In this document: in pieces, positions 11,922-30,301 of the stretch | Position numbering within the stretch: position 1 is the first letter of the stretch | How the letters are laid out: each line of letters begins with the position of its first letter | Translations under genes and position numbers: made by a program | The notes under the pieces: model-generated | The model's database searches: none | Told to the model about the DNA's origin: nothing | Seen by the model: the letters and a program-made list of their open reading frames with translations, nothing else | From: Rhizobium sp. GN54 | GTDB taxonomy: Bacteria > Pseudomonadota > Alphaproteobacteria > Rhizobiales > Rhizobiaceae | Assembly: GCF_021026345.1 (NCBI RefSeq) | Contig: NZ_JAJNCZ010000016.1 | Coordinates: forward strand, 1-64,000 | Direction of reading: 5' to 3' | DNA: 64,000 bases

Positions 11922-12959
11922 TCACTTGCCTTTCGGACTGGCCGCCAAACGCACGAGCAGCGGCGGCGCGATGATGTTGGTGAGGAAGGAACGCGTAAAC
12001 TGGAACCCCGCGACGATGGCGGCGGCGGCACCGAGCGCCTTGGCCGAGGCGATCATCTCGCCAAGGCCGCCGGGCGCGACGCCGAGCGCCAGCGAGACCG
12101 GCGCGACATCGACGAAGAGGCGGAGCACCGGCACGAAGCCGAAGACCATGATGAGGATCAGCCCGCCGCTGCAGATGACGGCTGCGAGCGCGGCACGCGG
12201 CACGCGCTCGAAATCCTCCTTCTTCAGCCGCGCGCCGAGCGAGAAGCCGATCAGCACCTGCGCCCCGACGATCAGCCACCAGGGCATGGTCGCGATGGAG
12301 ACGTTCATCGACACCAGCGCGATGCCGACCGCCATCGGCATGATGACCCAGGGGTTCAGCACACCGAGCCGCGACGTCACCACCGAAAGCAACAGACCAC
12401 CGGCGACGCAGGCGGCGAGCGCCAGCACGCTCGCCTCCGGAGCGGCGGCGGCCACAACGGCGCTGCGGTCGACACCGAAGAGAAAGGGCACCAGCACGAC
12501 GATCATCACCACGCGCAGCGTGTGCACGACCATGACCACATCCGCCTGCGCGCCGGTTTCGCGCGCGAGCGACGCCATTTCCGACATGCCGGCCGGCAGC
12601 GTCGAGAGCAGCGCCGTCTTGCGGTCCACGCCGGCTATCTTCTGCAGCGGAAATGCGAGCGCGACGCCGAGCGCATTGGCGACGAAGGCGGCGGCGATCA
12701 TCGCCGGCAGGAAGGACCAGAGCTCGCCGAGAATGCCGGGAGTCAGGATCGCAGCCGTCGCGCCGCCGATCAGGAGCTGGCCGAGACGGCGCGCATATTT
12801 CGTCTTGCCGCCGAGCCCGACCGTATTGGCATAGACGGCGCTGCCGGCCATCGCGCCGAGGATCCAGGCGAGCGGAACGCCCGTCAGCGACAGGAGCCAA
12901 CCTGCCACGGCCGAGGTGGCGATGCCGCCGGCCAGCGTGAGGTTGGGTCCGAGGGTCAT
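11922..12959 (-). CDS. AbrB-family integral membrane protein (duplicated membrane domain)
   Basis: A 345-residue hydrophobic protein of the family often mislabelled AbrB transcriptional regulator or ammonia monooxygenase. It has about ten membrane segments in two internally similar halves: GVPLAWILGAMAGSAVYAN near residue 30 and LGVLNPWVIMPMAVGIALVS near 205. A conserved loop LLSTLPAGMSEMASLARETGA lies near 120 and VAPGGLGEMIASAKALGA in the second half. No DNA-binding domain is visible, so a transporter or channel role is more likely; function is unproven for the family. The start overlaps the upstream SDR stop by 4 bp. A second copy lies at 26984-28108, also beside an SDR and MmgE/PrpD genes. 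Confidence 0.85.
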   Translation of the reverse strand: MTLGPNLTLAGGIATSAVAGWLLSLTGVPLAWILGAMAGSAVYANTVGLGGKTKYARRLGQLLIGGATAAILTPGILGELWSFLPAMIAAAFVANALGVALAFPLQKIAGVDRKTALLSTLPAGMSEMASLARETGAQADVVMVVHTLRVVMIVVLVPFLFGVDRSAVVAAAAPEASVLALAACVAGGLLLSVVTSRLGVLNPWVIMPMAVGIALVSMNVSIATMPWWLIVGAQVLIGFSLGARLKKEDFERVPRAALAAVICSGGLILIMVFGFVPVLRLFVDVAPVSLALGVAPGGLGEMIASAKALGAAAAIVAGFQFTRSFLTNIIAPPLLVRLAASPKGK

Positions 12960-13711
12960 GACAGGTAGGCACCGCCGTTGACATGCAGCGTCTCGCCGGT
13001 GACGTAGCGCCCGCCCGTGCCTGCGAGATAGGCGACGGCTTCCGCCACCTCCTCCGGCCGACCGTGCCGGCCGACGAGATTCTTGCGGTTGCCGTGGTGC
13101 CTGGGTGCCGCGCCGTCATTGCCGATGCGCACCGTATCGATCAGGCCCGGCGCGACGCAGTTTACGGTGATGCCCTTTGGCGAAAGCTCGTGCGCCATCG
13201 CCTTGGTCAGGCCTACCACACCGGCCTTTGCGGTGATGACATGCGCCCGGTGCGCTGCTCCGGTATGGCCTGTCAGGCCGCCGAGATTGACGATCGCCGC
13301 CTGGTCGCTTTGTTCCAGATGCGGAAGGGCGGCCTGCGAGACGAGAAAGACGGCATCGAGCGCGACGCCCATCACCTTTCGCCAATCGGCATAGGTGATC
13401 TCGGCAAAGGCGCCTTCCGGGCGGATTGCGGCATTGTTGACGACGACGTCGAGCCTGCCGAAGGCGCCTGCCGCTTCCCGCACGACCCGTACTGCCACAT
13501 CCGGGTCCGAGAGATCGCCACTGACCAGAACCGCCCGCCGCCCGAGCGCCTCGACGGCCGCTACGGTCTCGCCGCCGGCTGTCGTGTCGTTCGCCACGTG
13601 CACGACGATGTCGGCGCCACGCCCGGCCAGCGCGACGGCGATGGCCCGCCCGATGTTGCGCGAGGCGCCGGTGACGAGGGCGGCGCGGCCCTGGAGATCG
13701 CTGATCGTCAT
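12956..13711 (-). CDS. SDR-fold protein lacking the catalytic Tyr and Ser
   Basis: A 251-residue classical SDR fold. The nucleotide-binding motif is TGASRNIG (residues 14-21), NNAAI sits at 92-96 and the C-terminal GETLHVNGG is normal. The active-site strip is not: Lys162 is present, but the position four before it is Val158 instead of Tyr, and the usual Ser is Gly145 (VNLGGLTGHTGAAHRAHVITAK). It may therefore not be an ordinary dehydrogenase; a dehydratase, epimerase or binding role is possible. It overlaps both neighbours by 4 bp (MmgE/PrpD upstream, AbrB downstream). The SDR at 28092-28883 has the same loss. Confidence 0.85.
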   Translation of the reverse strand: MTISDLQGRAALVTGASRNIGRAIAVALAGRGADIVVHVANDTTAGGETVAAVEALGRRAVLVSGDLSDPDVAVRVVREAAGAFGRLDVVVNNAAIRPEGAFAEITYADWRKVMGVALDAVFLVSQAALPHLEQSDQAAIVNLGGLTGHTGAAHRAHVITAKAGVVGLTKAMAHELSPKGITVNCVAPGLIDTVRIGNDGAAPRHHGNRKNLVGRHGRPEEVAEAVAYLAGTGGRYVTGETLHVNGGAYLS

Positions 13712-15081
13712 TTCGCAAGCTCCGAAATCATCTCGTGTCCGCCCTTCATCGACGCAATGGCATCGCAGGCCGCGAGCAGCGCGCTCGCGTTCCCATGTCC
13801 GCCAAAGGCGACGTTGGCGCGGAACTTCGCATCGATCTCGTCCCGCGTCAGCGGCTCCTCGACGCCGCCGCGCATGTGGCCCTGCTCCGCCTCCTCGACG
13901 CGGCCGTCCTCGTACTCGACGCGCACATGGCCGGTGAAGGCGGCGGGATAGGGATTGTCCGGGTCGATCTCGAAATCGACGACCTCGCAGAGACGCAGCA
14001 GATCCGGATCGCGGATCGCCTCCTCGGTGAAATCGCCGAGCTCGGCATGGCCGCGCACGAGGCCGAGCGCCACGCCGAAGGGCGTCGAGAACTTGGCGGC
14101 ATAGGCGGTCGGCGGCTGGCGCTTGAGCTCGATCGGCTCCCAGAGGCGGTGCACGATACCTTCCGCCGTCTTGCAGACGATGCGCCTAATACCGTCCAGC
14201 GGTACGTTTCGCGCGCGCAGCTTCATGGCGACGTCGATATAGGGCTGCACCATCGTGCCGCAGGGATAGGGCTTGAAGGTGATGCCATCCATCACGAAGG
14301 TCTTGCCGAGGCCGTCGAACAGCCGTTCGGTCTTCGGCTCGATCGACGGGGCGAAGGTCTTGAAGGCGCCGTGCGTTCCCTCGAAGACCAGGCGCGGCCC
14401 GACGAAGCCCGCCTCCGCCATGGCGACGGCCCTCAGCGCCGATTGCGCCGACCAGCCGGGATGCATGCGCTTTGTCCAGCTACCGTCGCCGAGATATTCG
14501 ATGATGCCCGACGCCATCGATCCGGCGATGCCGAGCGCATCGACGATGACCTTTTCCGGCGCGCCGCGGGCGACCGCGATACCGAAGGTGGCGGCAAAGG
14601 CGCCGAGCACGGCGGTCGGGTGAAAGCCCGCCTTGTGCACGGCCTTCGGCAACGTCAGCGCCAGCCGGCAGAGCACCTCGGTTCCGATAGCGATGCCAAG
14701 CATGACCCGGTCGTTGGTCAGTTGATACTTCTGCGCGGCGGCAAGAAGCGCCGGCACGATCACCACGCCGGAATGCACTGGCCCGCCCTCGAACGTGTCG
14801 TCGAAATCCTCACCATGCGCCGCCGTGCCGTTGACAAGCGCGGCACTGGAGGCGGAGACGCGTTCCGCGTGACCGACGATGATATGGTCGCCCGGTTCGG
14901 CGGCAGCCTTCGCGGCCGCGACATAGTCTGTTCCCCGCGCAGAGATGCAGAGGCCGACGATGTCGACCAGGATGTCGCGGCTCTTGGCCAGCGTCGCCGC
15001 CGGCAGGTCGCCCGGCCCGAGCGTCGCGCCCCAGGCGGCGAGGCGTTCGGAAACGGAAAGTGTGTTCGCGTCTTTCGTCAT
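13708..15081 (-). CDS. MmgE/PrpD-family protein 2
   Basis: A 457-residue MmgE/PrpD protein. The active-site strip reads GEDFDDTFEGGPVHSG, so it lacks the HP pair found in the other three copies, but the Lys/His motif is kept (SWTKRMHPGWSAQSA). C-terminal residues 330-440 form the smaller alpha/beta domain. Family members dehydrate, decarboxylate or isomerise substituted tricarboxylates or dicarboxylates. It is coupled to the SDR by a 4-bp overlap and follows tctA by 3 bp. This suggests that it handles the acid imported by the adjacent TctCBA system. It looks like a different subfamily from copies 1 and 3. Confidence 0.87.
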   Translation of the reverse strand: MTKDANTLSVSERLAAWGATLGPGDLPAATLAKSRDILVDIVGLCISARGTDYVAAAKAAAEPGDHIIVGHAERVSASSAALVNGTAAHGEDFDDTFEGGPVHSGVVIVPALLAAAQKYQLTNDRVMLGIAIGTEVLCRLALTLPKAVHKAGFHPTAVLGAFAATFGIAVARGAPEKVIVDALGIAGSMASGIIEYLGDGSWTKRMHPGWSAQSALRAVAMAEAGFVGPRLVFEGTHGAFKTFAPSIEPKTERLFDGLGKTFVMDGITFKPYPCGTMVQPYIDVAMKLRARNVPLDGIRRIVCKTAEGIVHRLWEPIELKRQPPTAYAAKFSTPFGVALGLVRGHAELGDFTEEAIRDPDLLRLCEVVDFEIDPDNPYPAAFTGHVRVEYEDGRVEEAEQGHMRGGVEEPLTRDEIDAKFRANVAFGGHGNASALLAACDAIASMKGGHEMISELAK

Positions 15082-15084
15082 GGA

Positions 15085-16599
15085 TCAGCTTTCAGCACTT
15101 TCGGAAAATGTCGAGGTCGGGCGGTGGCGCACGAGATCATAGATGCGCTTGGCGATCGATCCGCCGATGAAGAGGAAGGCGAGGATGAGCAGGCCGAGCG
15201 AAATCCGGTCGTCGACGAAAATCATCCAGTCGTCGCCGGAGAGCACCAGCGAGCGGCGAAAGTTGCTCTCCACCAGATAGCCAAGCACGAGGCCAAGCAC
15301 TGTCGGCAGGAAGGGGAAGCGCAGCATGCGCATGAAGAACCCGAGCATGCCGGCGGCGATCATGATGCCGAGATCGAAGGCCTCGTTGTGGATCGAATAG
15401 ATGCCGGAGAGGATCAGCGCGAAGATGAAGGCGTTGAGATAGGGGCGCGGCCGGTTGACGAGCCAGATGCAGACCGGAAGCATCGCCATGCCGATGAGAA
15501 GCTGGCCGATCGCCGCCGTGAAGAGGCCGGCATAGAGCCCGTAGACCACCTCGCCGGACTTCTGGAACAGCATCGGACCCGGCACGATGCCGTGAATGAG
15601 AAACCCGCCGAGCAGGATCGCCGTCGAATTGGAGCCCGGAATGCCGAAGGAAAGCAGCGGCACCAGTGCGGTTTCGGCGACCGTGTTGTTGGCGGTTTCC
15701 GGGGCGGCAATACCTTCCGGCGAACCCTTGCCGAATTCCTCCGGATGACGCGACCAGCGGCGCGCCTCGTTGTAGGACATAAAGGAGGCAATGGTGCCGC
15801 CGGCGCCCGGCATGACGCCTTCGAAAGTGCCGATGCCGTTGCCGATTATCTGCGCTGGTATGAGCCTCTTGGCGAGCGGCCAGTCGGGAAACTGGATGCG
15901 CGGCCGCGAAGTCACGCGCTCGTCCTGCTCCCGCTTGGAAGCCTGGACCAGAAGCTCGCTCATGGCGAAGAGGCCGACCATGATCATCACCGGTTCGATG
16001 CCGCCGAGAAGCTCCGCCGAGCCGAAGGTGAAGCGGGTGCCGCCGGTGACCGGATCGCTGCCGATGGTGGCGATGATCAGGCCCAGGATGGCGGCGATCA
16101 GGCCCTTGACGAGATTCTCGCCCGACAGCGTCGCGATGACCGAGAGGCCGAGGATGCCGAGGGCAAAATAGGCCATGGGCGTGAAGGCGAGCGCCACCTT
16201 CGCCAGCGGGCCGGAGAGCGTCATCAGCATGGCAAGCCCGAAGAGGCTGCCGATCACGCCGGAATAGAGCGAAATGCCGAGCGCCAGCCCCGCCTTGCCC
16301 TGCCGGTTCATCTCGTAGCCGTCGATGACGGTCGCCGCCGCTGCATTGGTGCCGGGCGTGCGGATCAGGATCGCCGGAACCGAGCCGCCATATTCGGCGC
16401 CGATATAGGTGGAGGCGAGCAGCACGATCGCGCTCGTCGGGTCGAGCGTGTAGGTGAAGGGAAGAAGCAGCGCCATCGTGATCGACGGCGAGATGCCAGG
16501 CAGCGCGCCGCCCATGATGCCCCAGGTGACGCCGATCAGGGCGGCGAGGATCACGTGCCAGTCGAAGAGGAAGGCCGCGGTGTGGGTGAGGGTTTCCAT
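15085..16599 (-). CDS. tctA: Tripartite tricarboxylate transporter large permease TctA (set 1)
   Basis: A 504-residue protein with about twelve membrane segments, the usual TctA size. It shows the family loops GALPGISPSITMALLLPFTYTLDPT near residue 35 and a second TctA motif, EGVMPGAGGTIASFMSYNEARRWSRHPEEFGKG, near 255. IPGSNSTAILLGGFLIHGIVPGP follows at about 315-335. It forms the ion-coupled permease with TctB. The start lies 20 bp after tctB ends. The downstream MmgE/PrpD gene begins 3 bp later, so transport and metabolism genes are co-transcribed. Confidence 0.94.
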   Translation of the reverse strand: METLTHTAAFLFDWHVILAALIGVTWGIMGGALPGISPSITMALLLPFTYTLDPTSAIVLLASTYIGAEYGGSVPAILIRTPGTNAAAATVIDGYEMNRQGKAGLALGISLYSGVIGSLFGLAMLMTLSGPLAKVALAFTPMAYFALGILGLSVIATLSGENLVKGLIAAILGLIIATIGSDPVTGGTRFTFGSAELLGGIEPVMIMVGLFAMSELLVQASKREQDERVTSRPRIQFPDWPLAKRLIPAQIIGNGIGTFEGVMPGAGGTIASFMSYNEARRWSRHPEEFGKGSPEGIAAPETANNTVAETALVPLLSFGIPGSNSTAILLGGFLIHGIVPGPMLFQKSGEVVYGLYAGLFTAAIGQLLIGMAMLPVCIWLVNRPRPYLNAFIFALILSGIYSIHNEAFDLGIMIAAGMLGFFMRMLRFPFLPTVLGLVLGYLVESNFRRSLVLSGDDWMIFVDDRISLGLLILAFLFIGGSIAKRIYDLVRHRPTSTFSESAES

Positions 16600-16619: not shown

Positions 16620-17111
16620 TCAGAGGCTGAGGCTGGCGAGAAGACCGGACGGCATGCGCACGCCCAGCACGATGACGAACATCACCCAGAGGAAGATTGC
16701 GCCGAGCACCGCCACCGACAGCACGCGTCCCTTGTTGCCGGCACCGAGATAAAGCGCGGTCACAAGAAGCAGCACGGCGACGGAGATGAGATAGCCGAGC
16801 GTCTCGACAAGGAAGATGTAGCCGACGCCGATAGCGAGCAGGCCGGCAGCAAAAAGCAGCTTTCGCCCCTGCCCGTCCCATTCGCCTTTTTCATCCGTCG
16901 TAGCGCCCGCCACGGCCATGCGCCGCGAGACAATCGCCTGGATCGTCAGGATTGCGCCGAGGCCGATCAGCAGCCAGCCATAAACGCGCGGCAGGCCGCC
17001 CGGACCCATGCTGTCGTCGAGCGCACTGGTGCGCAACTGATAGGCGAAGAAGAGATAGACGGCACCGATTGCGATGGACGCGACACCGCCGACGAAGTCC
17101 CGGGTTAGCAT
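16620..17111 (-). CDS. tctB: Tripartite tricarboxylate transporter small permease TctB (set 1)
   Basis: A 163-residue membrane protein with four predicted helices, beginning MLTRDFVGGVASIAIGAVYLFFAYQL and containing the SMGPGGLPRVYGWLLIGLGA segment typical of TctB. It is the small membrane partner of TctA. A 94-bp gap separates it from tctC. The gap contains a weak GC-rich inverted repeat around 17137-17196 (CGGCTTCGG facing CCGAAAGCCG). Confidence 0.88.
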   Translation of the reverse strand: MLTRDFVGGVASIAIGAVYLFFAYQLRTSALDDSMGPGGLPRVYGWLLIGLGAILTIQAIVSRRMAVAGATTDEKGEWDGQGRKLLFAAGLLAIGVGYIFLVETLGYLISVAVLLLVTALYLGAGNKGRVLSVAVLGAIFLWVMFVIVLGVRMPSGLLASLSL

Positions 17112-17205: not shown

Positions 17206-18159
17206 TTATTCGATAACGCCGGTCTTCTTCAGGAAGTCCGCCGTTTCCGTGCCGAAGGTCTCGATGAACGTGACATAGTCGACATGGGGCATGAATTCGG
17301 CGCGGAGATTGGCGCCCTCATAGGCTTCCTTGTATTTCGGGTCGGCGAGCACCTTCTGCGTCGCCGCTTCCCAGGCGGCGACCACGTCGTCCGGCAAGCC
17401 CTTCGGCCCCGCCAGCCCACGGAACTTGCGCACGACCACGTCGTAGCCGGATTCCTTGACGGTCGGGAGATCCGGGAACGCGTCGAGGCGCTGGTCGCTG
17501 AAGGTGGCGAGCAGCCGGAGCTCACCGGCCTCGATCTGCGACTGGATTTCCTGCACTTCGCCGACACCGATCTGAAGCGTGCCGTTCAGCACGTTGATCA
17601 TCATGTCGCCACCGCCTTCATGCGTGACCACCGCCGCGTTGACCCCGGATGCCGCCTTCAGCTGTTCCAGCGCCTGGCGCTCGAGCGACGCCGGGTTGGC
17701 CGCACCCCACTGGCCGCGGCCGTCGCGGGCGTACTGGATGACATCCTCCAGCGTCTTGAACTCGCTCTTCGCCGATGTGTAGATCACCTCGGGGTCGATG
17801 AAGAAGTTCACCAGCGGCTCGAGGTCGGTATACTTGTATTCCGGTTCGGAGAGCAGCGACGTGTAGATGAAGGTCGGCGTCGTCGCGTAGAAGATCGAGC
17901 CGTCGGCAGGCGCCTGCGCAAGCTGCGCCATCGCCTTGGCGCCCGAACCGCCGCTGATATTTTCCACGATGACGTTGGCGCCGAGATAGGGCGACAGGTA
18001 TCGCGACAGTTCGCGCAGGAAGACGTCGCTGCCGCCGCCGGGGCTGGAATGGGTGACGAGCGTCACCGTATCGACGGGGTATTCCTGGGCCTGAGCGACC
18101 GCAAGCCCGCCTGCCAGGACAGCAGCAGCGGCGGCGGAGACGAAATACAGCTTGTGCAT
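17206..18159 (-). CDS. tctC: Tripartite tricarboxylate transporter substrate-binding protein TctC (Bug family, set 1)
   Basis: A 317-residue precursor with a Sec signal peptide (residues 1-24, ending VAQAQ). Bug-family features are present: VTLVTHSSPGGGSDVFLRELS near residue 35, NISGGSGAKAMAQLAQAPADGSIFYATTP near 65-95 and a ligand loop around VVTHEGGGDMMINVLNGTLQIGVGE near 180. It begins at 18159 behind GGGAGGATTT. It is the first gene of the 13-kb minus-strand run and has its own predicted GntR operator and promoter 110-130 bp upstream. The ligand is probably a hydroxylated di- or tricarboxylate. Confidence 0.92.
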   Translation of the reverse strand: MHKLYFVSAAAAAVLAGGLAVAQAQEYPVDTVTLVTHSSPGGGSDVFLRELSRYLSPYLGANVIVENISGGSGAKAMAQLAQAPADGSIFYATTPTFIYTSLLSEPEYKYTDLEPLVNFFIDPEVIYTSAKSEFKTLEDVIQYARDGRGQWGAANPASLERQALEQLKAASGVNAAVVTHEGGGDMMINVLNGTLQIGVGEVQEIQSQIEAGELRLLATFSDQRLDAFPDLPTVKESGYDVVVRKFRGLAGPKGLPDDVVAAWEAATQKVLADPKYKEAYEGANLRAEFMPHVDYVTFIETFGTETADFLKKTGVIE

Positions 18160-18322: not shown

Positions 18323-19438
18323 TCAGTCGAGAGCCACGCGCGTATCGCGGAACGCGTCCTGGTCGAGCGTCAGGCCGAGACCCGGACGGTTGGGAATCTC
18401 GATGAAACCGTTCTTCGGCTTCGGCGCATCGGTGAAGAGCGTTTCGCCGACGGCCACCATTCCGAGGTGCCATTCGACGATCCAGCCGTTCATCATGCCG
18501 GCCAGGAGATGCATGTTGAAAAGCGGCCAGCCGCCGCCATTGGCGATCGGCATGTTGTAGATCTGGGCGAGATGCGCGATCTTGCGGGCCTCGGTGTAGC
18601 CACCGCAATAGGTGACGTTCGGCTGCAGAATGTCGAGCGACTGGTGCTCGATGAACTCCCGCATGCGCCAGCGATGTCCTTCCATCTGGCCGGCGGCCAG
18701 GGGTATCCTGGTCGAGCGGCGGAGGTCGGCGAGCGCCCGCGCATCGTTCTGCGTCAGCGGTTCCTCGAACCAGGTGATGCCGCAGTCCTCGATCTCCCGG
18801 CAGAGATATTTCGCCTCGACCGGGTTGAAGAGATAGTTCGCGTCAATCATCAGGTCGATATCGTCGCCGACTGCGTCGCGAATCGCCTTGACCCGCCGCG
18901 CATCCTCACGCCAGCCGCCCTTGTCGACCGCGACGACCGATTTCAACGCCAGGAAACCATTGGAAACATGAAGTTTCGCGGCCTCGCCGAGCAGGTCAAT
19001 GTCATATTGCGGAAAACCGAATGTGACGTAGCAGGGCACCTTGTCGCGCGCGCCGCCGAGCATCGCGGCGATCGAGCGGCCTTCCGCCTTGCCGATGATG
19101 TCCCAGAGCGCGATGTCGAGGCAGGAGAGCGCCATGGAAATGGTGCCGCTCATGGCGCGCGGGTTGAGCTTCTGCCAGACCCGCTGGTGGATCTTCTCCA
19201 GATCGCGTACGTCCATACCCTTGACGCAGGGAAGCACGTGCTTTTCGAGCGCGACGATGACGGCACGCGACAGGAAATGGCCCGTCAGCCCGTAGCCGAC
19301 GATGCCCTCGTCGGTCTCCACCTGGCAGAAGACGAAATGGGTCTGTTCCTCGCGGCCGTAGCCTTGAACGCGCCCCTGGAGCAGCGGAATTTCGATCGAG
19401 AAACCGTGCAGGCTGGCTCTGATGTCCTGAATGATCAT
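18323..19438 (-). CDS. Enolase-superfamily enzyme with an atypical C-terminal active-site strand
   Basis: A 371-residue protein starting at 19438 behind GGGAGGG. Superfamily ligands are visible in LMIDANYLF, WFEEPLTQND and AAGQMEGHRWRM, with LALKSVVAVD as the first acid/base strand. Where mandelate-racemase-type enzymes carry a His in a PHxxG/S strand, this protein has IANGGGWPLFNMHLLAG, so the usual Asp-His dyad appears replaced; the only nearby His is in NMHLL. It probably acts on an acid sugar or hydroxyacid, but the reaction cannot be assigned. It is divergent from the dehalogenase-like hydrolase gene and shares with it an intergenic GntR-type operator. Confidence 0.82.
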   Translation of the reverse strand: MIIQDIRASLHGFSIEIPLLQGRVQGYGREEQTHFVFCQVETDEGIVGYGLTGHFLSRAVIVALEKHVLPCVKGMDVRDLEKIHQRVWQKLNPRAMSGTISMALSCLDIALWDIIGKAEGRSIAAMLGGARDKVPCYVTFGFPQYDIDLLGEAAKLHVSNGFLALKSVVAVDKGGWREDARRVKAIRDAVGDDIDLMIDANYLFNPVEAKYLCREIEDCGITWFEEPLTQNDARALADLRRSTRIPLAAGQMEGHRWRMREFIEHQSLDILQPNVTYCGGYTEARKIAHLAQIYNMPIANGGGWPLFNMHLLAGMMNGWIVEWHLGMVAVGETLFTDAPKPKNGFIEIPNRPGLGLTLDQDAFRDTRVALD

Positions 19439-19495
19439 GAAAGCGCCCTCCCCGCGCCGTGGAGCAATCGAGGGCATTGTCTAGCGCACTTCATT

Positions 19496-19514
19496 ATTGT
19501 AGACAATCTACAAA
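19496..19514. promoter_or_regulatory. Predicted GntR operator 2 (divergent promoter region)
   Basis: ATTGTAGACAATCTACAAA contains the perfect inverted repeat TTGTAGA-CAA-TCTACAA (19497-19513). It sits 17 bp before the hydrolase start and 57 bp before the divergent enolase-superfamily start, so one bound repressor could cover both promoters. Confidence 0.7.
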
Positions 19515-22117: not shown

Positions 22118-23641
22118 CTAGCTGGACTGCACCGCAGAAAGCGCTTCTTCCTTTGCCCGGCGCCGCTTGGAGATGAGCTGCAGCAGGATGGAACCAAGCA
22201 TCAGTGCAAAGATCACCAGCGCCCAGGGTCGATCCAGGCCGTAGCCGATGAAGTCGCCGCCGCTGATCTGGTTCGTCCTGAGCAGATTGCCTTCCAGCAG
22301 GCTGCCGAGCAGCAACCCGACCACGGCCGCCGCCACCGGATAGCCGTAGCGCACCATCGCCCAGCCGAGCACCGAGAAGACCCAGAGCGTGATCGGCCCG
22401 GCGGAACTACCCTCGATGGCATAGGCGCCGTAAGTCGAGACGACGAGGACGCTCGGGATCAGGAAGCGCAGCGGGACCCGGACGACATAACCCGCCACAT
22501 AGACGAAGCCGAGGCCTACGACGAAGAGCAGGATAGCCTGCGCGAAGTTGGAGAAGATGACTGCATAGACGATGTCCTTGTTGTGGGCGATGAAGCTTGG
22601 CCCGCCGACGATATTGTGCATCGCGAAGGCCGCAAGCAGGATCGCCGTCGCACCACCGCCGGGAATGCCAAGCGCCAGCATCGTTGCCATCGCGCCGCCC
22701 TCGGAGGAGGAATTCGCCGCCTCGGCCGCGATAACGCCCTTCGGATTGCCCTGCCCGAAGGTGTCGCCATCGGCGGCGTTGCGCTTCGTCTCCGAATAGG
22801 ACAGCAGGTTGGAAATCGACGAGCCGACGCCTGGTATGGCCCCGATGATCACGCCGATCAGCGATCCGCGGAAGATGATTGTCGGGTGGCTGAAGGTCTG
22901 CCGCACCCCGCCAAGAATTTTGGCGAAACTGATCTTGCGCGACCCTTCGTCATCGATCAGGTAGGTCGTATTGATGAGCCCGATCAACTGGCTGGCCGCC
23001 AGCAGCCCCATCATCGCGGGGATCTGGGGCACGCCATCGAGAAGCCAAGGAATGCCGATCGTGCCCCGAACGAAACCGGCGGTGTTCATGCCGACCGTTC
23101 CGAGCAAGACACCGAAGGTGCCGGCGAGAAGGCCGCGGCTCATATGCGTGCCGGCAAGAGAGCCGAGCAGCAACATGCCCCAGACGGCCACGGCAAACAT
23201 TTCGAGCGGCCCGAGTTTCAGGACGACGCCCGAAATCGGCACGATCAGTATGAAGAGAATGACATAGCTTGCAAGGCAGCCGACGACCGAGGAGGCAAGC
23301 GCAATGCCCAGTGCCTCGTTGTGCAGCCCCTTGCGGGCCATCGGATAGCCGTCAAAGGTGGTGGCGACGGCCGAGGACGTGCCGGGAATGCCCATCAGCA
23401 CGGCCGGGACCGATCCACCGAAGCCGGCGCCGGTATAGATTGCGGTCAGGAAGACGATGGCCGGCAGGAACTCCATGTAGAGCGTCGCCGGCAGGGCGAA
23501 CGCCATGGCCATGGTGATCGATATGCCCGGCATTGCACCAAAAATCAGCCCGATCGCCAACCCCGGAAGCAGATAGAGCCAGGCGTTGATGTCGGACGAC
23601 AACAGTGCGAAGGCTCCGAAAACAGAATTCAGTTCGATCAC
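22118..23641 (-). CDS. tctA: Tripartite tricarboxylate transporter large permease TctA (set 2)
   Basis: A 507-residue TctA protein of about twelve membrane segments. Typical loops are FGAMPGISITMAMAFALPATLYMEF near residue 35, GGSVPAVLMGIPGTSSAVATTFDGYPMARKG near 75 and IGAIPGVGSSISNLLSYSETKR near 260, followed by IPGGGATAILLAAFAMHNIVGGP. It starts with GTG at 23641, 10 bp after tctB. It differs clearly from set 1, so the two systems probably arrived separately or serve different acids. The C-terminal tail is charged (KRRRAKEE). Confidence 0.93.
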   Translation of the reverse strand: MIELNSVFGAFALLSSDINAWLYLLPGLAIGLIFGAMPGISITMAMAFALPATLYMEFLPAIVFLTAIYTGAGFGGSVPAVLMGIPGTSSAVATTFDGYPMARKGLHNEALGIALASSVVGCLASYVILFILIVPISGVVLKLGPLEMFAVAVWGMLLLGSLAGTHMSRGLLAGTFGVLLGTVGMNTAGFVRGTIGIPWLLDGVPQIPAMMGLLAASQLIGLINTTYLIDDEGSRKISFAKILGGVRQTFSHPTIIFRGSLIGVIIGAIPGVGSSISNLLSYSETKRNAADGDTFGQGNPKGVIAAEAANSSSEGGAMATMLALGIPGGGATAILLAAFAMHNIVGGPSFIAHNKDIVYAVIFSNFAQAILLFVVGLGFVYVAGYVVRVPLRFLIPSVLVVSTYGAYAIEGSSAGPITLWVFSVLGWAMVRYGYPVAAAVVGLLLGSLLEGNLLRTNQISGGDFIGYGLDRPWALVIFALMLGSILLQLISKRRRAKEEALSAVQSS

Positions 23642-23651: not shown

Positions 23652-24119
23652 TCAAAGAAATGTCAGAGGGAAAGGGAAAGGCGTGATGGTTCCATATCCG
23701 TATATGAGGAACACGGTGAAGATCGCACTGAACAGCAGATTGACCCACCATCGCTTTTCGCCGCAGACCGCTAGCCCAACCACCATGAAGATGAAGGTCG
23801 CAATATCGAAACCGACCACTTCCAGCGAGAAGGCAAGACCTGCGAGGGCGGCGATCAGGATGAAGACGCGAATGAGGTCGGCCCGCGTCTCGCTGTTGAT
23901 TTCGGCCTCTTCGGTCGAATCGGCCCGCGGAAAGATGCCCGGCAGCACAAGGGCGGCAAGCACAAGCGCGAGGATCGCGGCCGGCTGTACCAGCAGCAGA
24001 TTGTTCGTGCGCAGCGACACGCCACGCGCGTCCAGGAGATAGGCGGTGACGACACAGACGATGACGGTCAGCAGGATGAGGTGACCCCATACTATTTTGC
24101 GACCTGATTTGGTGCTCAT
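23652..24119 (-). CDS. tctB: Tripartite tricarboxylate transporter small permease TctB (set 2)
   Basis: A 155-residue protein with four to five predicted membrane helices, including LILLTVIVCVVTAYLLDARGV, LLVQPAAILALVLAALVLPG and FIFMVVGLAVCGEKRWWVNLLFSAIFTVFLIYGYG. It occupies the TctB position between tctC and tctA. A start at 24119 behind GGAGAT is supported. A strong hairpin precedes it (24137-24170). Confidence 0.87.
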   Translation of the reverse strand: MSTKSGRKIVWGHLILLTVIVCVVTAYLLDARGVSLRTNNLLLVQPAAILALVLAALVLPGIFPRADSTEEAEINSETRADLIRVFILIAALAGLAFSLEVVGFDIATFIFMVVGLAVCGEKRWWVNLLFSAIFTVFLIYGYGTITPFPFPLTFL

Positions 24120-24184: not shown

Positions 24185-25186
24185 CTAGTTACCCTTCAGC
24201 AGATCGATATACTGCTCCATCACTTTCGCGGTGCGGGCGAGCATCTTGTTCGACTCCTCAGGACCGTACCAGTCGGTGGCGAGTTGCTGGTTCTTCAGCG
24301 CCTCGATCGCCGCCGGATTCTGCGAGGCGGCGGCGATGGCGTTCACAAGCGTCTTGAATATTTCGGGGTTCGACGTCTGCATCGAGCCGTGCAGGCCCCA
24401 GCCCCGCTGAGAACCGACCACGAAATCGGCATCGGAGCCGAGAACGTCGGTCACGATCGCGCCGTCCCAATTGTCGCGCTTGCGGGTGTCGAAGGTCATC
24501 AGCGGACGGACCTGCTCCTTGAGTGGCAGGAAGCCTTCGCCGCCAACGAAGCCGACGTCGACGACACCGCCGGCAACCGCGTTGCGGGCCGGGCCGCCGC
24601 CGTCATAGGTGACGACGCGTACGGCATTGGCGTCGATCTGGTTCGCTGCGCACAAGATGTTGAAATTCACGAGGTCGGCCGATGCCGGCTGGAGACCGAC
24701 CGAAAGGCTGCCAGGATCGGCCTTGAGGCGGGCAATGGCGTCGTCGACCGACTTGACGTCGGAACCGGCGTTGGTCGCCATCAGCGTGTAATCTTGCGAC
24801 GGTAGGTTGACCATATAGAAGTCTTCCAGCTTGAAGGAAGCATCCTGCGTCAGAATATTGAGCGGCAGATAGGGCGCAGCAGACGTGCAGAGGATGGTGT
24901 AGCCGTCGTCCGGCTGCTGCAGGAAGAAGGTGTGTCCGAGCAGCGCGCCCGCGCCACCGCGGTTGACGATCGTCAGCGGCTGACCGAGCTTTTCTTGCAG
25001 GAACGGTGCGAAGGCCCGTGCCAGGCGGTCGTTGTAGCCGCCGGTGTCGAAAGGCACCACGATGTTGATCGGCCGGTCCGGATAGGCGCCCTGCGCGCGC
25101 AGGATCGATGGCATGCCGAGCGCGGCGATGGCGGCGCCACCTCCGGCGATCTTCAGTATGTTACGGCGTGAAAGTTGCGTTTTCAT
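24185..25186 (-). CDS. tctC: Tripartite tricarboxylate transporter substrate-binding protein TctC (Bug family, set 2)
   Basis: A 333-residue precursor with a twin-arginine leader (SRRNILKIAGGG, residues 6-17; cleavage probably after ILRAQG). Bug-family features include INIVVPFDTGGYNDRLARAFAPF near residue 40, NRGGAGALLGHTFFLQQPDDGYTIL near 70-95 and VTYDGGGPARNAVAGGVVDVGFVG near 190. The ATG at 25186 is chosen because CGGGAGGAGAA precedes it and the leader begins there; an upstream in-frame start at 25312 lacks support. Its promoter region has a GntR-type operator. Confidence 0.9.
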   Translation of the reverse strand: MKTQLSRRNILKIAGGGAAIAALGMPSILRAQGAYPDRPINIVVPFDTGGYNDRLARAFAPFLQEKLGQPLTIVNRGGAGALLGHTFFLQQPDDGYTILCTSAAPYLPLNILTQDASFKLEDFYMVNLPSQDYTLMATNAGSDVKSVDDAIARLKADPGSLSVGLQPASADLVNFNILCAANQIDANAVRVVTYDGGGPARNAVAGGVVDVGFVGGEGFLPLKEQVRPLMTFDTRKRDNWDGAIVTDVLGSDADFVVGSQRGWGLHGSMQTSNPEIFKTLVNAIAAASQNPAAIEALKNQQLATDWYGPEESNKMLARTAKVMEQYIDLLKGN

Positions 25187-25276
25187 GCGTTCTCCTCCCG
25201 AGCTTTTCGTTGCTCTCTCCCGTTTCGGCCCGGACCATGTCCTTCTCCTCGAGCCGAGCGAAAAGCTAAGAGTGAA

Positions 25277-25295
25277 TTGGTAAACTGTCAACAAT
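25277..25295. promoter_or_regulatory. Predicted GntR operator 3 with tctC set 2 promoter
   Basis: TTGGTAAACTGTCAACAAT matches the 19-bp pattern. On the minus strand it contains TTGACA (25291-25286) followed after exactly 17 bp by TAGCTT (25268-25263), so a repressor here would block the -35 element of the tctC promoter. Confidence 0.65.
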
Positions 25296-25429
25296 AATGC
25301 AAATCTGCGCAAGAAAAGCTGAAGAGTCCGGCGGGATGGCCGGCATTTGGCATCACATATTACGGATTAGCTGACAGTCCGGACGGCTTCTCATGCCAAC
25401 GAGTTCCATTTCTTCTGGTCTCTTCAAAA

Positions 25430-25543: not shown

Positions 25544-26962
25544 ATGACCGCTGCCGCCAAAGTTCCAAGCGAAGCCACGGGCCTGACCCGCGAAGTGGCG
25601 GAATTCGTTCACGGCATACGGCAGGGCGACCTCCCGGCGGTCGTCGTGGAAAACGGCAAGAAGTCGATCCTTGACGGCCTCGGCCTCGCCCTGTCCGGCT
25701 CCGTCGCGAAATCAGGCGAATATGTCCGCCATCACCTCGACGATATCGGTGCGGTCAACGGTACGGCTACCGTCATCGGCACGGATCGCAAGGTCCCGCC
25801 GCGTTTCGCGGCCTTTGCGAACGGTGTCGGCATCCACGCGGACGATTATGACGACACGCAGCTCGCGGTCGCCAAGGACCGGGTCTACGGCCTTCTGACG
25901 CATCCGACCGCGCCGGCCCTGCCCTCGGCGCTCGCCATGGGCGAGACGCTGGGCGCCAGCGGCGCGGATGTCATGCTGGCCTACCACATCGGCGTCGAGG
26001 TCGAATGCAAGATCGCCGAGGCGATCAATCCGCGCCACTACCAGACCGGTTTCCACGCGACTGCCACCTGCGGCACCTATGCGTCGGCCGCCGCCGCCGG
26101 CCGCCTGATGGGGCTGAACGTCGAGCAGTTGCTGCGCGCCCTTTCCATCGCCGGCAGCCAGTCTGCCGGTCTGCGCGAAAACTTTGGCACGATGACAAAG
26201 CCCTTCCATGCCGGCCGCTCCTCGGAGAGCGGCGTGGCCGCCGCGCAGTTCGCCTCCTATGGCTGGACGGCCGCGCCGACGATCCTCGAAGCCCCCCGCG
26301 GCTTCTTCTCGGCCGCCGGCGGCGGCTATGACGAAAACGCGATCAGCGGCAAGCTCGGCAATCCCTGGACCTTCGACAGCCCCGGCATCTCCATCAAGCC
26401 GCATCCGTCGGGCTCGCTCACCCATCCGGGAATGACCGAGATGCTTCGCCTCATCAAGGAAAACGGCATCAAGGCGTCCGACGTCGAGCACGTGCGCATC
26501 GGCACGAACCACAACATGCCGAACGCGCTGATCCATCATCGTCCGCAGAATGAGTTGCAGGCGAAATTCTCCATGCAGTTTTGCATGGCGATCCTTCTCC
26601 TGGAAGGCCGCGCCGGGCTCAACGAATTCACCGACGAGGTGGTGCTACGCGACGACGTCAAGGCGATGATCGCCAAGGTGGACTTCGTCGTCGACGAGCG
26701 CGCCGAGGCCGCCGGCTATCACCTGATGACCACCTATATCGACATCAAGCTGAAAGACGGCCGGACGATCTCCGGCATGGCGGATTTCGGCAAGGGCAGC
26801 CCGGCCAACCCGATGAGCTACGACGAGGTCGCGACGAAGTTCCTCGAATGCGCCGAATTCGCGCGGTGGGACATGGGCAGGGCCCGCGAGGTGGTCGGCA
26901 TGGTGGCCGAGTTCGAGAAGCTTGCGGACATCCGCAAGCTGATGGCGCTGGTCAGCAACTGA
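25544..26962 (+). CDS. MmgE/PrpD-family protein 3
   Basis: A 472-residue MmgE/PrpD protein from the ATG at 25544 (TCGGGAGGAAAT upstream). The active-site strip is ADDYDDTQLAVAKDRVYGLLTHPT and the Lys/His motif GTMTKPFHAGRSSESG, both close to copy 1 (6896-8371). The two are therefore likely recent paralogues or isofunctional. It is the first gene of a plus-strand operon: MmgE/PrpD, AbrB, SDR, MmgE/PrpD and two beta-decarboxylating dehydrogenase-type enzymes. A GntR operator overlaps the presumed promoter. Confidence 0.88.
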   Translation: MTAAAKVPSEATGLTREVAEFVHGIRQGDLPAVVVENGKKSILDGLGLALSGSVAKSGEYVRHHLDDIGAVNGTATVIGTDRKVPPRFAAFANGVGIHADDYDDTQLAVAKDRVYGLLTHPTAPALPSALAMGETLGASGADVMLAYHIGVEVECKIAEAINPRHYQTGFHATATCGTYASAAAAGRLMGLNVEQLLRALSIAGSQSAGLRENFGTMTKPFHAGRSSESGVAAAQFASYGWTAAPTILEAPRGFFSAAGGGYDENAISGKLGNPWTFDSPGISIKPHPSGSLTHPGMTEMLRLIKENGIKASDVEHVRIGTNHNMPNALIHHRPQNELQAKFSMQFCMAILLLEGRAGLNEFTDEVVLRDDVKAMIAKVDFVVDERAEAAGYHLMTTYIDIKLKDGRTISGMADFGKGSPANPMSYDEVATKFLECAEFARWDMGRAREVVGMVAEFEKLADIRKLMALVSN

Positions 26963-26983: not shown

Positions 26984-28108
26984 ATGGATGACAAGCCTCG
27001 ATCAGCAACGCTCGGGCAAACGGGCACGCAACCGGACGCGGCGGTGCGCCATCGCCAGCCGCGCTGGTGGCTGACGCTTGCGCTCACCTATGCCATCGCG
27101 GCGGTGGCGGGCTTTGCGGCGAAGGCTGTCAACATGCCGCTGCCCTTCATGCTCGGCCCGTTCTTCGTCATGGCGGCGCTCTCGATCTTCGGCTTCCGGT
27201 CCGCGCTGGTTCCAATGGGCCGCGAGCTCGGCCAGGTCGCGATCGGGGTTGCAGTCGGCATGCGTTTCACGCCGGCGGTGCTCGCCGCCATGACCAGCCT
27301 CTTGCCGGCCATGATGCTCGGTACGATCTATGTCGTCATATTCACGATGGCCGCAGCATTTCTCTTCAAACCGCTAGCGAAGGTGGACGACGTCACCGCC
27401 TTCTTCGCGACCGCCGCCGGCGGCGTCGCCGACATGGCGACGGTCGCGAAGGACTATGGCGGAGCGGCCGGATCGGTCGCAGTGGTGCATGCCATGCGCG
27501 TTTCCGGCGTGGTGGCGCTCGTGCCTTTCCTCGTCGTTCTCTTCGGAGAGCCGGGCAATGCGCCGGACGCGGCGGCCGTTGGGTCACACTGGCTGCTGGT
27601 GATCGTCTCGCTGGCGCTCGGCTACCTGATGGCGCGGCTTCTCAAGCCAACACCGTTGCCCAATCCCTGGCTCGTCGGGCCGATCTTCATGGGCATCATC
27701 ATTGGCGTGCTCGGGCTCTACTCCGTAAAGATTCCGCCTCTGCTGATCAGCATTGCGCAGATCATGCTCGGCACCTGGCTCGGCTGCCAGTTTAAGCGCG
27801 ACCTTTTGGCGGCGCTGCCACGCGTGACCTTCGCGGCCCTCGTCATATCGCTCTTCATGATCGGCTGTGCGGCGGCGGGCGCCGTCGTGCTGACGTTCGC
27901 GACCGGTCTTCCCTATCCGACGAGCTTCCTGTCGTTGGCGCCGGCCGCCGTCACGGAAATGGTTGTGACGGCCCAGGTCATGCATCTCGAGGCGGAGGTA
28001 GTTACGGCCTTCCATGTGATGCGCATCGCCGTCGTCTCGTCGACGGTGCTCATCGTCTTCAAATTCTATCTTCGATTGAGGGGAGGCTCCATTGGACCTG
28101 GGGTATAG
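26984..28108 (+). CDS. AbrB-family integral membrane protein, second copy
   Basis: A 374-residue protein with a charged 25-residue N terminus followed by about ten membrane segments in two related halves. Shared family features are FATAAGGVADMATVAKDYGGA near residue 145 (compare the PAGMSEMASLA loop of the first copy) and LAPAAVTEMVVTAQVMHLEAE near 320. The ATG at 26984 is one codon after an in-frame GTG. It overlaps the SDR start. The conserved MmgE/PrpD-AbrB-SDR association suggests a dedicated exporter or importer for the acid these enzymes handle (inference). Confidence 0.84.
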   Translation: MDDKPRSATLGQTGTQPDAAVRHRQPRWWLTLALTYAIAAVAGFAAKAVNMPLPFMLGPFFVMAALSIFGFRSALVPMGRELGQVAIGVAVGMRFTPAVLAAMTSLLPAMMLGTIYVVIFTMAAAFLFKPLAKVDDVTAFFATAAGGVADMATVAKDYGGAAGSVAVVHAMRVSGVVALVPFLVVLFGEPGNAPDAAAVGSHWLLVIVSLALGYLMARLLKPTPLPNPWLVGPIFMGIIIGVLGLYSVKIPPLLISIAQIMLGTWLGCQFKRDLLAALPRVTFAALVISLFMIGCAAAGAVVLTFATGLPYPTSFLSLAPAAVTEMVVTAQVMHLEAEVVTAFHVMRIAVVSSTVLIVFKFYLRLRGGSIGPGV

Positions 28109-28883
28109 GGGGCGACGCGCGCTGATCGTCGGCGGTAGCTACGGTATCGGCAAGGCCTCAGCCGCCATCATGGGCGCGGAGGGCGCCGACGTACTGATCG
28201 CCTCACGCAGTGCAGACAATCTCAACGAGGCGGCTGACGACATCGCGGCATCAGGCGCCGCCCGGCCGGCGACGCTCGTCTGCGACGTCACGGAACCGGG
28301 CGCCGGAGAGACGCTGGCTGCTGCGGCGATGGAGCGTTGGGGTGCGCTGGACCTGCTTTTAACCGCCGTCGGCGGCAGCATCCGCTCCTCCTTTGAGGAC
28401 CTGACGGACGAGGACTGGCTCGCCAACTACACCTTCAACATCCTGTCGACCGTGCGCGCCATCCGCGCCCTGCTGCCGGCGCTGGAAAAGGGCGAGAACC
28501 CGGCGATCGTGACGCTCGGCGCCGCGGCCTCGAAGATGCCCTACCAGCACCAGATCGTCTCCAACGTTCATAAGGCCGGCCTTCTCGGCCTGACCAAGAC
28601 GCTCGCCGCCGAACTTGCCGACCGAAAGATCCGCGTCAATTGCGTGGCGCCTGGCCGCACGCTGACGCCACTCTGGACCAAGCGCGCCGACAAGATGGCC
28701 GGCGAACAGGGCCGGACGCGCGACGACATCCTCGGCGATTTCTCGAAGGACATTCCGCTCGGCCGCTTCGCAAGCCCCGACGAGGTGGCGAGTATGGTGG
28801 TGTGGCTCGCAAGCCCCCGCGCCAGCTACGTCACCGGCCAGACAGTCAACGTGGACGGCGGCATAGCCCGCGGTCTTCTGTAA
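28092..28883 (+). CDS. SDR-fold protein lacking the catalytic Tyr and Ser, second copy
   Basis: A 263-residue SDR with TTG start at 28092 behind GAGGGGAGG, overlapping the AbrB gene by 17 bp. The dinucleotide motif is GGSYGIG (residues 14-20). Lys161 is kept in NVHKAG, but the Tyr position is Ser157 (QIVSNVHK), the Ser position is Ala, and the NNAG motif is replaced by TAVGG. The C-terminal GQTVNVDGG is normal. This is the same active-site loss as in the SDR at 12956-13711, although the proteins are otherwise divergent. The SDR at 62887 in this window keeps Ser/Tyr/Lys and serves as a contrast. Confidence 0.85.
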   Translation: MDLGYRGRRALIVGGSYGIGKASAAIMGAEGADVLIASRSADNLNEAADDIAASGAARPATLVCDVTEPGAGETLAAAAMERWGALDLLLTAVGGSIRSSFEDLTDEDWLANYTFNILSTVRAIRALLPALEKGENPAIVTLGAAASKMPYQHQIVSNVHKAGLLGLTKTLAAELADRKIRVNCVAPGRTLTPLWTKRADKMAGEQGRTRDDILGDFSKDIPLGRFASPDEVASMVVWLASPRASYVTGQTVNVDGGIARGLL

Positions 28884-28900
28884 GTTACAAGGAGAATGAA

Positions 28901-30301
28901 ATGAGTCAGCACCAGGCAACCGCCCCCGGCATTCCCAAGGTGACGGAAATCCTCGCCGACTGGGTCGTCACCATCAAGGGCAGCGACATCGCGCCCGACG
29001 TTCGCCGAGAGGGGCTGCGGACCTTCGTCAACTGGGTCGGCTGCGCGGTCGGCGGTGCAAGCCACGAGACGGTCGACCGAGCACTGGCCGCCGTGGCGCC
29101 CTTCTCGGGCAAGCCAACCTCCACCGTTCTGGGCCGCAGCGAGAAGCTCGACGCGCTGCATGCGGCGCTCGTCAATGGCATCACCTCGCATGTGCTGGAC
29201 TATGACGACACCCACCTGAAGACGATCATCCATCCGGCAGGCCCGGTTGCCTCGGCACTGCTGGCGCTGGCGGAAGTGCGCCCCGTTTCCGGCTACGACC
29301 TTCTGACGGCGCTGATCGTCGGCGTCGAGGTCGAGTGCCGTATCGGCAACTCCGTCTATCCGCATCACTACGACCGGGGCTGGCACATCACCGGGACGGC
29401 CGGCGTCTTCGGGGCGGCGGCTGCCGTCGGCAAGGCGATCGGCCTCGATGCGCAGCAGATGCGCTGGGCCTTCGGCCTGGCCGCCACCCAGTCCTCGGGT
29501 CTCAGAGAAATGTTCGGCACGATGACCAAGAGCTTCCACCCCGGCCGCGCCGCGCAGAACGGCATGTTCGCAGCCTTGCTCGCCGAAGCGAACTTCGACA
29601 GCACGGAACGCGCCATCGAGGCGCCGCGCGGCTTCGCCAACGTCATGTCCGACAAGCAGGACTATTCCGAAATCCTCGACGACCTCGGCACGCGCTGGGA
29701 AGCGGCGCTGAACAGCTACAAACCGTTTGCTTGCGGCATCGTCATCCATCCAACCATCGACGGCTGCATCCAGCTTCGCGACGAACTCGGCGACGAGAAA
29801 GTGCGCCGCATCCGCTCGGTCGAACTGACCGCCCACCCGCTGGTGCTGGAACTGACCGGCAAGACCACACCGAAGACCGGGCTCGAGGGCAAGTTCTCGG
29901 TCTACCATGCGGCCGCGGCTGCCCTTCTCAAGGGCGACGGCGCACCGACCGCCTTCACCGACGAGATCGTCAACGATCCCGAGATCATCGCGCTTCGTGA
30001 CCGCACCAAAGCCACCGCCGACCGGAACTGCCACGAGGCCTCCGTCGACATCCTCGTCACCTTCGACGACGGCTCGACGGTCTCCAAGCGTGTCGAGCGC
30101 GCGATCGGTTCCAAGGACGTGCCGCTCACCGACGCGCAGATCGACCACAAGTTCACGGTCCAGTCGGCGCTCGTGGTCGGCGACGCGGTGACGAAACAGC
30201 TCCTCGATACGTCGTGGAAGCTCGAAGAACTCAAGGACGCCGCCGACGTCGCGCGCGCCAGCGTTCCCGGATCCACCTCCAAGACGGCAGCAGCGGAATG
30301 A
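28901..30301 (+). CDS. MmgE/PrpD-family protein 4
   Basis: A 466-residue MmgE/PrpD protein from the ATG at 28901 (CAAGGAGAATG upstream). The active-site strip is LDYDDTHLKTIIHPAGPV, the variant nearest to the aconitate decarboxylase and general PrpD pattern, with the Lys/His motif GTMTKSFHPGRAAQNG. It ends ATGA into the next gene. It differs from copy 3 of the same operon, so the operon may need two different dehydratase or isomerase steps, or the two could form a heteromer. Confidence 0.88.
   Translation: MSQHQATAPGIPKVTEILADWVVTIKGSDIAPDVRREGLRTFVNWVGCAVGGASHETVDRALAAVAPFSGKPTSTVLGRSEKLDALHAALVNGITSHVLDYDDTHLKTIIHPAGPVASALLALAEVRPVSGYDLLTALIVGVEVECRIGNSVYPHHYDRGWHITGTAGVFGAAAAVGKAIGLDAQQMRWAFGLAATQSSGLREMFGTMTKSFHPGRAAQNGMFAALLAEANFDSTERAIEAPRGFANVMSDKQDYSEILDDLGTRWEAALNSYKPFACGIVIHPTIDGCIQLRDELGDEKVRRIRSVELTAHPLVLELTGKTTPKTGLEGKFSVYHAAAAALLKGDGAPTAFTDEIVNDPEIIALRDRTKATADRNCHEASVDILVTFDDGSTVSKRVERAIGSKDVPLTDAQIDHKFTVQSALVVGDAVTKQLLDTSWKLEELKDAADVARASVPGSTSKTAAAE

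Follow-up and report, generated by a model that had tools for sequence, protein, structure and literature searches.

Enzymes of the MmgE/PrpD family act on substrates that contain a 1,4-dicarboxylate unit, and an enolate mechanism has been proposed for them, according to the part of PMC12290011 available to us. The same part describes a five-gene set for methylsuccinate (CoA-transferase, acyl-CoA dehydrogenase, MmgE/PrpD protein, hydratase, and lyase), and places a gene for a tripartite tricarboxylate transporter (TTT) receptor near the C. necator cluster, its function being given as not known there. In the available part of PMC11578231, mmgE/prpD genes on Paracoccus yeei replicons are mentioned as propionate catabolism only. 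The AbrB family has been placed among the CPA/AT reentrant-fold membrane proteins (PMC8396727, available part). Eugenol synthase is an enzyme with the fold of short-chain dehydrogenases/reductases (SDRs) that has no catalytic Tyr and in which Lys is essential, the Lys132Ala variant being inactive (PMC1991597, available part). Here we analyze a stretch of 64,000 nucleotides from Rhizobium sp. GN54 (contig NZ_JAJNCZ010000016.1, positions 1 to 64,000 of the forward strand; the window), in which a conserved gene island at ~5.2-33.2 kb contains two modules, each with an AbrB-family membrane protein, MmgE/PrpD genes, and an SDR lacking the catalytic Tyr. The modules were first reported in an earlier note on this DNA, and we find that one of the two SDRs, SDR1, represents a widespread Tyr-less family whose partner is MmgE/PrpD, mostly of one clade.

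Two modules in one gene island

The minus-strand module consists of the MmgE/PrpD protein W2 (13708-15081), SDR1 (12956-13711), and AbrB1 (11922-12959), and the junction sequences contain 4-bp overlaps at 13708-13711 (W2/SDR1) and 12956-12959 (SDR1/AbrB1). The plus-strand module consists of W3 (25544-26962), AbrB2 (26984-28108), SDR2 (28092-28883), and W4 (28901-30301), with the start of SDR2 17 bp inside AbrB2. Pfam agrees with the earlier note on the identity and position of all seven genes. These genes are real, but the inventory missed a fourth MmgE/PrpD gene (W1, 6896-8371, minus strand), two TctA/B/C sets, a CoA-dependent enzyme set, and two isocitrate/tartrate-type dehydrogenases. In the 5.57-Mb, 28-contig genome, four MmgE/PrpD genes were found, all within one 23-kb stretch of the island that also holds two of the three AbrB genes of the whole genome. 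Since 4/4 MmgE/PrpD and 2/3 AbrB genes fall in 23 kb and the arrangement recurs elsewhere, the clustering is not attributed to chance. Locus G040 has the island layout in the same order with the opposite reading direction, L091 has a layout of the same kind, and L090 (Rhizobium rhizolycopersici) contains the part of the island from TctA to the lyase, with an SDR1 93% identical to that of the window. The gene association, which could have been particular to this genome, recurs in other genomes and in plasmid records. It is real, conserved, and widespread; the earlier note spotted it correctly but centered it on the wrong partner for SDR1.

The SDR1 family

SDR1 (PF13561, 179 bits) has Gly145 at the position of the catalytic Ser and Val158 at the position of the catalytic Tyr, and it keeps Lys162. 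These positions were compared in 106 aligned rows: SDR1 itself, 25 sequences from genomes of the order and from plasmids, and 80 loci that were the best among the matches listed when a species-genome collection was scanned with the SDR1 alignment. Locus L136 has the same sequence as L042, which leaves 105 distinct rows and the picture unchanged. The 577 listed "relatives" could contain distant SDRs and should not be read as the size of the family. The Tyr position is Val in 103 rows, Ile in two, and Asn in one; one of the three scan patterns contains Val, and the 17 pattern-free homologues outside the window all have Val too. The Ser position is Gly and position 162 is Lys in all 106 rows, while the tetrad Asn (position 117) is kept in only 9/106, so that the Asn-Ser-Tyr-Lys tetrad is broken in this family. 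The earlier note held that both SDRs retain the Lys and the nucleotide motif. The Lys is indeed present in each (Lys162 and Lys161), but the motif of SDR1, TGASRNIG, departs from the consensus TGxxxGxG with an Asn for the middle Gly, a position that is Asn in 95/106 and Arg in 8/106 rows. Among the genome's 59 SDR matches besides SDR1 (SDR2 included), 47 have the Tyr and 54 the middle Gly. The SDR1 family also has marks of its own, namely Arg97 (106/106), Asp119 (103), Arg155 (105), His157 (105), and Arg195 (103). A catalytic Tyr shifted to another position in SDR1 was ruled out, as the column richest in Tyr across the family is Y236, which has it in 85/106 rows and is located at the C-terminal end.

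The predicted model of SDR1 (pLDDT 93.1) has the Rossmann SDR fold of FabG, with a TM score of 0.91 to 4jro; structure alignments covered 57 of the 80 SDR1 loci and 11 of the 12 loci with AbrB. SDR1 therefore resembles FabG-type classical SDRs in the fold of its model and in Lys162, but differs from them in lacking the Ser, the Tyr, and mostly the Asn of the tetrad and in the replaced middle Gly. In the SDR tree, the 106 rows form a single clade with a support of 0.994, and the nearest paralogue, L170, keeps the Tyr (0.85). Eleven of the 59 own-genome matches were omitted from this tree: nine sequences listed as fragments, FabI-like, or atypical; SDR2's own copy; and one sequence of at most 180 residues. 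The dN/dS of SDR1 against its counterpart in L090 is 0.089, and by this sequence measure SDR1 is under purifying selection.

SDR1 was found in 16/297 genomes of the order, own genome included. The 80 best loci are distributed over Alpha-, Beta-, and Gammaproteobacteria and bins labeled Chloroflexi, Acidobacteria, and Rokubacteria, the breadth beyond Proteobacteria resting on metagenome bins. A search of the order genomes at E 1e-55 found SDR1 in 0/12 other genomes of the same family; the island is therefore patchy in distribution and was perhaps acquired.

The MmgE/PrpD partner of SDR1

Gene families at these loci and at the AbrB control loci described below were identified with profiles derived from a small number of window and plasmid proteins (E 1e-8), and those at the loci of order genomes and plasmids with BLAST (1e-15). 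Within 10 kb of SDR1 in the 80 loci, MmgE/PrpD is present in 68, TctC in 50, FCD regulators in 33, TctA in 29, TctB in 24, and AbrB in 12. When only the 44 loci flanked by ~10 kb on each side are considered, MmgE is present in 38 and AbrB in 8. MmgE lies within 400 bp of SDR1 in 56/80 loci, directly upstream on the same strand in 48 of the 56, and AbrB lies within this distance in 9/80. If the start codon closest to the stop is assumed, 16/49 upstream MmgE/SDR1 junctions permit an exact 4-bp overlap. The suggestion that the Tyr-less SDR forms a clade tied to AbrB is not borne out by these counts for SDR1.

The MmgE proteins next to SDR1 also differ in sequence from their relatives. In an analysis that omitted MmgE frames below 380 aa, His occupies the position of the catalytic Tyr145 of the epimerase in 43/55 SDR1-adjacent MmgE proteins vs 11/44 other MmgE frames of the same loci (Fisher 1.9e-7). 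The His-type clade, taken as the best fit over all branches, has 57 tips, 56 of them with His, and a support of 0.996; two His-type sequences fall outside. Distances among SDR1 sequences and among His-type MmgE sequences are correlated (Mantel r 0.664 for 50 loci; the highest value among 500 shuffles was 0.243), and this r includes a contribution from shared species descent. The partner of SDR1 is MmgE/PrpD, mostly of one His-type clade, and AbrB is an occasional neighbor.

On plasmid pTAV3 of Paracoccus versutus (L057), SDR1 and AbrB lie near the annotated tricarballylate dehydrogenase TcuA and PrpF, neighbors that hint at tricarboxylates. A chromate-transporter family gene pair follows SDR1 in L030, L056, and L059, and PdxA-like and tartrate dehydrogenase genes also follow it in L030 and L056.

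The SDR2 family

In SDR2 (PF13561), Ala replaces the catalytic Ser, Ser157 takes the place of the Tyr, and Lys161 is retained; the loss of both Ser and Tyr in the two SDRs, as first reported, is confirmed. In six SDR2 sequences, the Tyr position is Ser in five and Thr in one, so the catalytic Tyr is absent throughout; Lys is kept in 6/6, and the catalytic Ser position is lost in 5/6. Y113 is invariant in the alignment of the six and may have a role in SDR2. The six sequences form their own clade (0.998) apart from SDR1, adjoining L180 (0.859), an own-genome paralogue on contig C25. In L180 and a second paralogue, L182 (C1), Ser replaces the Tyr and Arg replaces the Lys (SAVFR and SNTLR). PDB entry 2z1n ("dehydrogenase") shares 34% identity and the Ser at the Tyr position with SDR2 but has Arg where SDR2 keeps Lys, and the grouping of SDR2 with L182 and 2z1n has a support of only 0.159. 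Because SDR1 and SDR2 fall in separate clades, the Tyr was, most simply, lost at least twice among SDRs, in line with the parallel loss described before; the loss in SDR2 may be one event with 2z1n and L182.

SDR2 is rare, with 6/297 order genomes and 2/385 class genomes (own genome included) and no plasmid match at E 1e-40. Both AbrB and MmgE neighbor it in 5/7 loci (window, G040, G077, G189, and G366). The suggested tie to AbrB thus suits SDR2 better than SDR1, but further SDRs of the Ser type exist, including the solved structure 2z1n.

These observations bear on whether the two proteins are enzymes at all. SDR1 and SDR2 may instead be catalytically dead proteins of Rossmann fold, binding or sensing a polycarboxylate or dinucleotide while they stabilize or regulate the neighboring MmgE/PrpD (SDR1) or AbrB (SDR2). 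For SDR1, a dead partner of MmgE is the chief rival explanation, and it gains from the losses themselves (Ser, Tyr, and mostly Asn in SDR1; Ser in 5/6 and Tyr in 6/6 SDR2 sequences), from the tight pairing of SDR1 with MmgE, and from the correlated divergence of the two. It is at odds with the Lys162 kept in all 106 rows and with the new conserved Arg/His set around the catalytic site of SDR1, and Lys-only enzymes of the SDR fold are known (PMC1991597, available part). The low dN/dS of SDR1 also speaks for function, yet selection would preserve a binding partner too. We regard dead partners as possible but somewhat unlikely. Eugenol synthase is a precedent only: it is likewise an SDR fold with Lys alone, but it belongs to another branch and has other substrates (PMC1991597, available part).

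In the alignment with the genome's 3-hydroxybutyrate dehydrogenase (TIGR01963, above cut-off), R97 and R155 of SDR1 stand opposite the NNAGIQ Gln and the KSAY Lys. These Gln and Lys residues we take to bind the substrate carboxylate in that enzyme; a search of open-licence papers on the carboxylate-binding residues of this enzyme found nothing. Because of this alignment, we favor an SDR1 that would be catalytically active on a polycarboxylate with Lys alone.

AbrB membrane proteins

AbrB1 and AbrB2 match PF05145 with 178.7 and 227.7 bits (cut-off 29.2). The full-length model of AbrB1 matches the aspartate:alanine exchanger AspT and the citrate symporter CitS and contains a duplicated reentrant fold. 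The likeness lies in the fold of the AbrB1 model; identity is 11% in both alignments, and the solved chains are longer. A PDB sequence search with AbrB1 gave matches at E 1.3 or worse only. In the plasmid records of five loci (L029, L030, L031, L055, and L057), the PF05145 protein is labeled "AbrB family transcriptional regulator", in L029 with a gene-regulation GO term. This annotation would make AbrB a regulator, which we consider highly improbable: the literature places the family among CPA/AT reentrant-fold membrane proteins (PMC8396727, available part), the full-length AbrB1 model is AspT/CitS-like, and the island has a separate GntR/FCD regulator. The predicted fold says carrier, contrary to the label in the records, and AbrB1 is a predicted elevator-type carboxylate carrier.

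As a family, AbrB is not linked to MmgE. In 40 AbrB-centered control loci, hand-picked across a list of the order's AbrB genes and spanning at least 19.3 kb in 33 cases, MmgE was found near AbrB in 0/40 and TctA in 4/40. Given also the AbrB counts at the SDR1 loci, AbrB, MmgE, and SDR genes do not form a constant trio. The separate AbrB sequence set omitted AbrB frames of 280 aa or shorter.

MmgE/PrpD proteins and the CoA-dependent set

All four MmgE/PrpD proteins (W1-W4) contain the N- and C-terminal family domains together with H85, D88, H99, H150, K198, and K266 (2hp0 numbering, PMC12290011), and belong to the family on this ground. In the alignment, the position of the catalytic Tyr145 of the two-base epimerases (IDS epimerase, methylsuccinate isomerase) is Tyr in W1, W3, and W4 and His in W2. 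W1 (PF03972 and PF19305) has IDS epimerase 2hp0 as its best PDB match and 7/7 active-site residues; W3 matches IDS epimerase at 8.5e-52, W4 matches 7bra and 2hp0, and W2 carries PF03972 and PF19305. The window proteins are thus like IDS epimerase and cis-aconitate decarboxylase (2hp0, 7br9) in domains and substrate-holding residues.

The genes around W1, all on the minus strand, encode a HpcH/HpaI-type CoA-ester lyase similar to RipC/citramalyl-CoA lyase (5179-6195, start uncertain; PF03328, 97.5 bits), a FAS1/MaoC-type hydratase (6008-6880; PF13452, E 5.5e-7), a class III CoA-transferase (8414-9550; PF02515, 350 bits), and an acyl-CoA dehydrogenase (9547-10725; PF00441/PF02770/PF02771). The lyase and the hydratase are also present in G040 and L090. 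With its adjacent CoA-transferase, acyl-CoA dehydrogenase, MmgE/PrpD, hydratase, and lyase, the island is like the methylsuccinate/itaconate cluster of Cupriavidus and Pseudomonas (PMC12290011, available part), but it adds SDRs, AbrB, two TTT systems, MR/MLE proteins, and isocitrate-type dehydrogenases.

Other genes of the island

The minus strand encodes two complete TctA/B/C sets, situated next to and between the modules, with all components above Pfam cut-offs. TTT transporter 1 consists of TctA (15085-16599; PF01970, 464 bits), TctB (16620-17111; PF07331, 68.6 bits), and the TctC receptor (17206-18159; PF03401, 119 bits), and TTT transporter 2 of TctA (22118-23641; 371 bits), TctB (23652-24119; 41 bits), and TctC (24185-25312, start uncertain; 54 bits), matching the same families. 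Enolase-superfamily (MR/MLE) proteins are encoded at 10749-11918 (PF13378) and 18323-19477 (PF13378, 192 bits), both on the minus strand. Downstream of W4 on the plus strand are an isocitrate/isopropylmalate-type dehydrogenase (30298-31401; PF00180, 278 bits), a tartrate dehydrogenase (31286-32458, true start about 31388; TIGR02089, 489.5 bits, above the cut-off of 470.4), and the GntR/FCD regulator (32512-33222; PF00392 and PF07729). The island is flanked at 205-5172 by a TRAP transporter (DctP/Q/M), a third enolase-superfamily gene, and a LysR regulator, and after the FCD regulator by a transposase remnant (33469-34896, plus strand; DDE_Tnp_1, 26.6 bits).

Between the modules, the plus strand encodes an alpha/beta hydrolase (19459-20472; PF00561), which adjoins the rhodanese in relatives, and a three-domain rhodanese (20265-22055; PF00581 in three stretches), both with uncertain true starts. 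The pair (19459-22055) is also found in G040, G077, G189, L090, L091, L093, L094, and L100. The rhodanese, found here and in several relatives, could mean that the substrate is a sulfur dicarboxylate such as thio- or sulfino-succinate; the sulfur would then be taken by the rhodanese, and the homologue of acyl-CoA dehydrogenase would act as a desulfinase. The 3-sulfinopropanoyl-CoA desulfinase model does match the acyl-CoA dehydrogenase with 203.7 bits, but this is under the cut-off of 600 and only fourth in rank, and rhodanese occurs in 5/80 SDR1 loci. A sulfur substrate is therefore improbable in our judgment.

Discussion

An acid-catabolic island with MmgE/PrpD genes is not new in kind (PMC12290011). 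A system of acid metabolism and transport, as already proposed for the modules, is the best reading of the island, and we put at about even the chance that it takes up and breaks down one or several substituted succinates (1,4-dicarboxylates or tricarboxylates), the AbrB proteins acting as carriers and the SDRs as NAD(P) enzymes that rely on Lys alone. The scheme starts from gene content, conservation, residues, clades, and predicted folds, from which we infer substrates, reactions, NAD(P) use, and transport with its direction. The two TTT systems, going by their TctA/B/C components, would import the acids. The MmgE/PrpD proteins would abstract the C2 proton of the 1,4-dicarboxylate unit, resulting in epimerization, dehydration, or decarboxylation, and the isocitrate/tartrate-type dehydrogenases would then decarboxylate 2-hydroxy-3-R-succinates. 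Much as in the methylsuccinate pathway, an alkylsuccinate branch may be broken down by CoA-transferase, acyl-CoA dehydrogenase, hydratase, and lyase. The two AbrB proteins would be elevator-type carriers of the AspT/CitS fold, predicted from the AbrB1 model, for a substrate, intermediate, or product. SDR1 and SDR2 would be NAD(P)-dependent enzymes on polyanionic substrates in which the retained Lys acts without Tyr; in SDR1, Arg97, Arg155, His157, and Arg195 may hold the carboxylates, and SDR1 and the His-type MmgE would function as a co-inherited pair.

Several observations weigh against this scheme. MmgE is absent from 12/80 SDR1 loci, six of which are flanked by 10 kb on each side (L116, L120, L143, L157, L163, and L167), and 5/17 SDR1 homologues of the order sample are without MmgE. 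Among the SDR1-adjacent MmgE proteins, 12/55 are without the His, five of the 12 having Tyr, and two of the seven SDR2 loci (G285 and G188) are without AbrB or MmgE. The SDR1 model is of low confidence at residues 191-210 (block means 61 and 53), and the Asn for the middle Gly could mean weaker NAD(P) binding. The fold in common with AspT and CitS does not in itself make AbrB a transporter. The island lyase scores 161 bits against the RipC/Ccl equivalog (NF038242 RipC_Ccl, cut-off 375), and the CoA-transferase is also under the NCBIfam cut-offs of the itaconate/mesaconate equivalogs. Because of these scores, itaconate is probably not the substrate, and another alkylsuccinate appears likelier.

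A bolder proposal is that SDR1 and the His-type MmgE make up one co-inherited enzyme of two proteins, whose SDR-fold subunit has a new Lys plus Arg/His site lacking Tyr and Ser and catalyzes an NAD(P) reaction new for SDRs on substituted succinates or tricarboxylates delivered by MmgE, and that both AbrB clades are AspT-like exchangers of acid and product. We consider this speculative, and rather doubtful as a whole.

In the open-licence literature, we found no paper on the SDR1 family, on an MmgE-SDR pair, or on AbrB beside TTT genes; neither the Tyr-less SDR1 family and the active-site signature that marks it, nor its pairing with a His-type MmgE, nor the association with AbrB turned up there. 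If the proposed reading is true, it would give a substrate class, succinate-type di- and tricarboxylates, to three protein groups without assigned function at once: a widespread Tyr-less FabG-like family, a separate MmgE/PrpD clade, and two AbrB clades recorded as transcriptional regulators. Each of these claims would then be testable with a small panel of acids.

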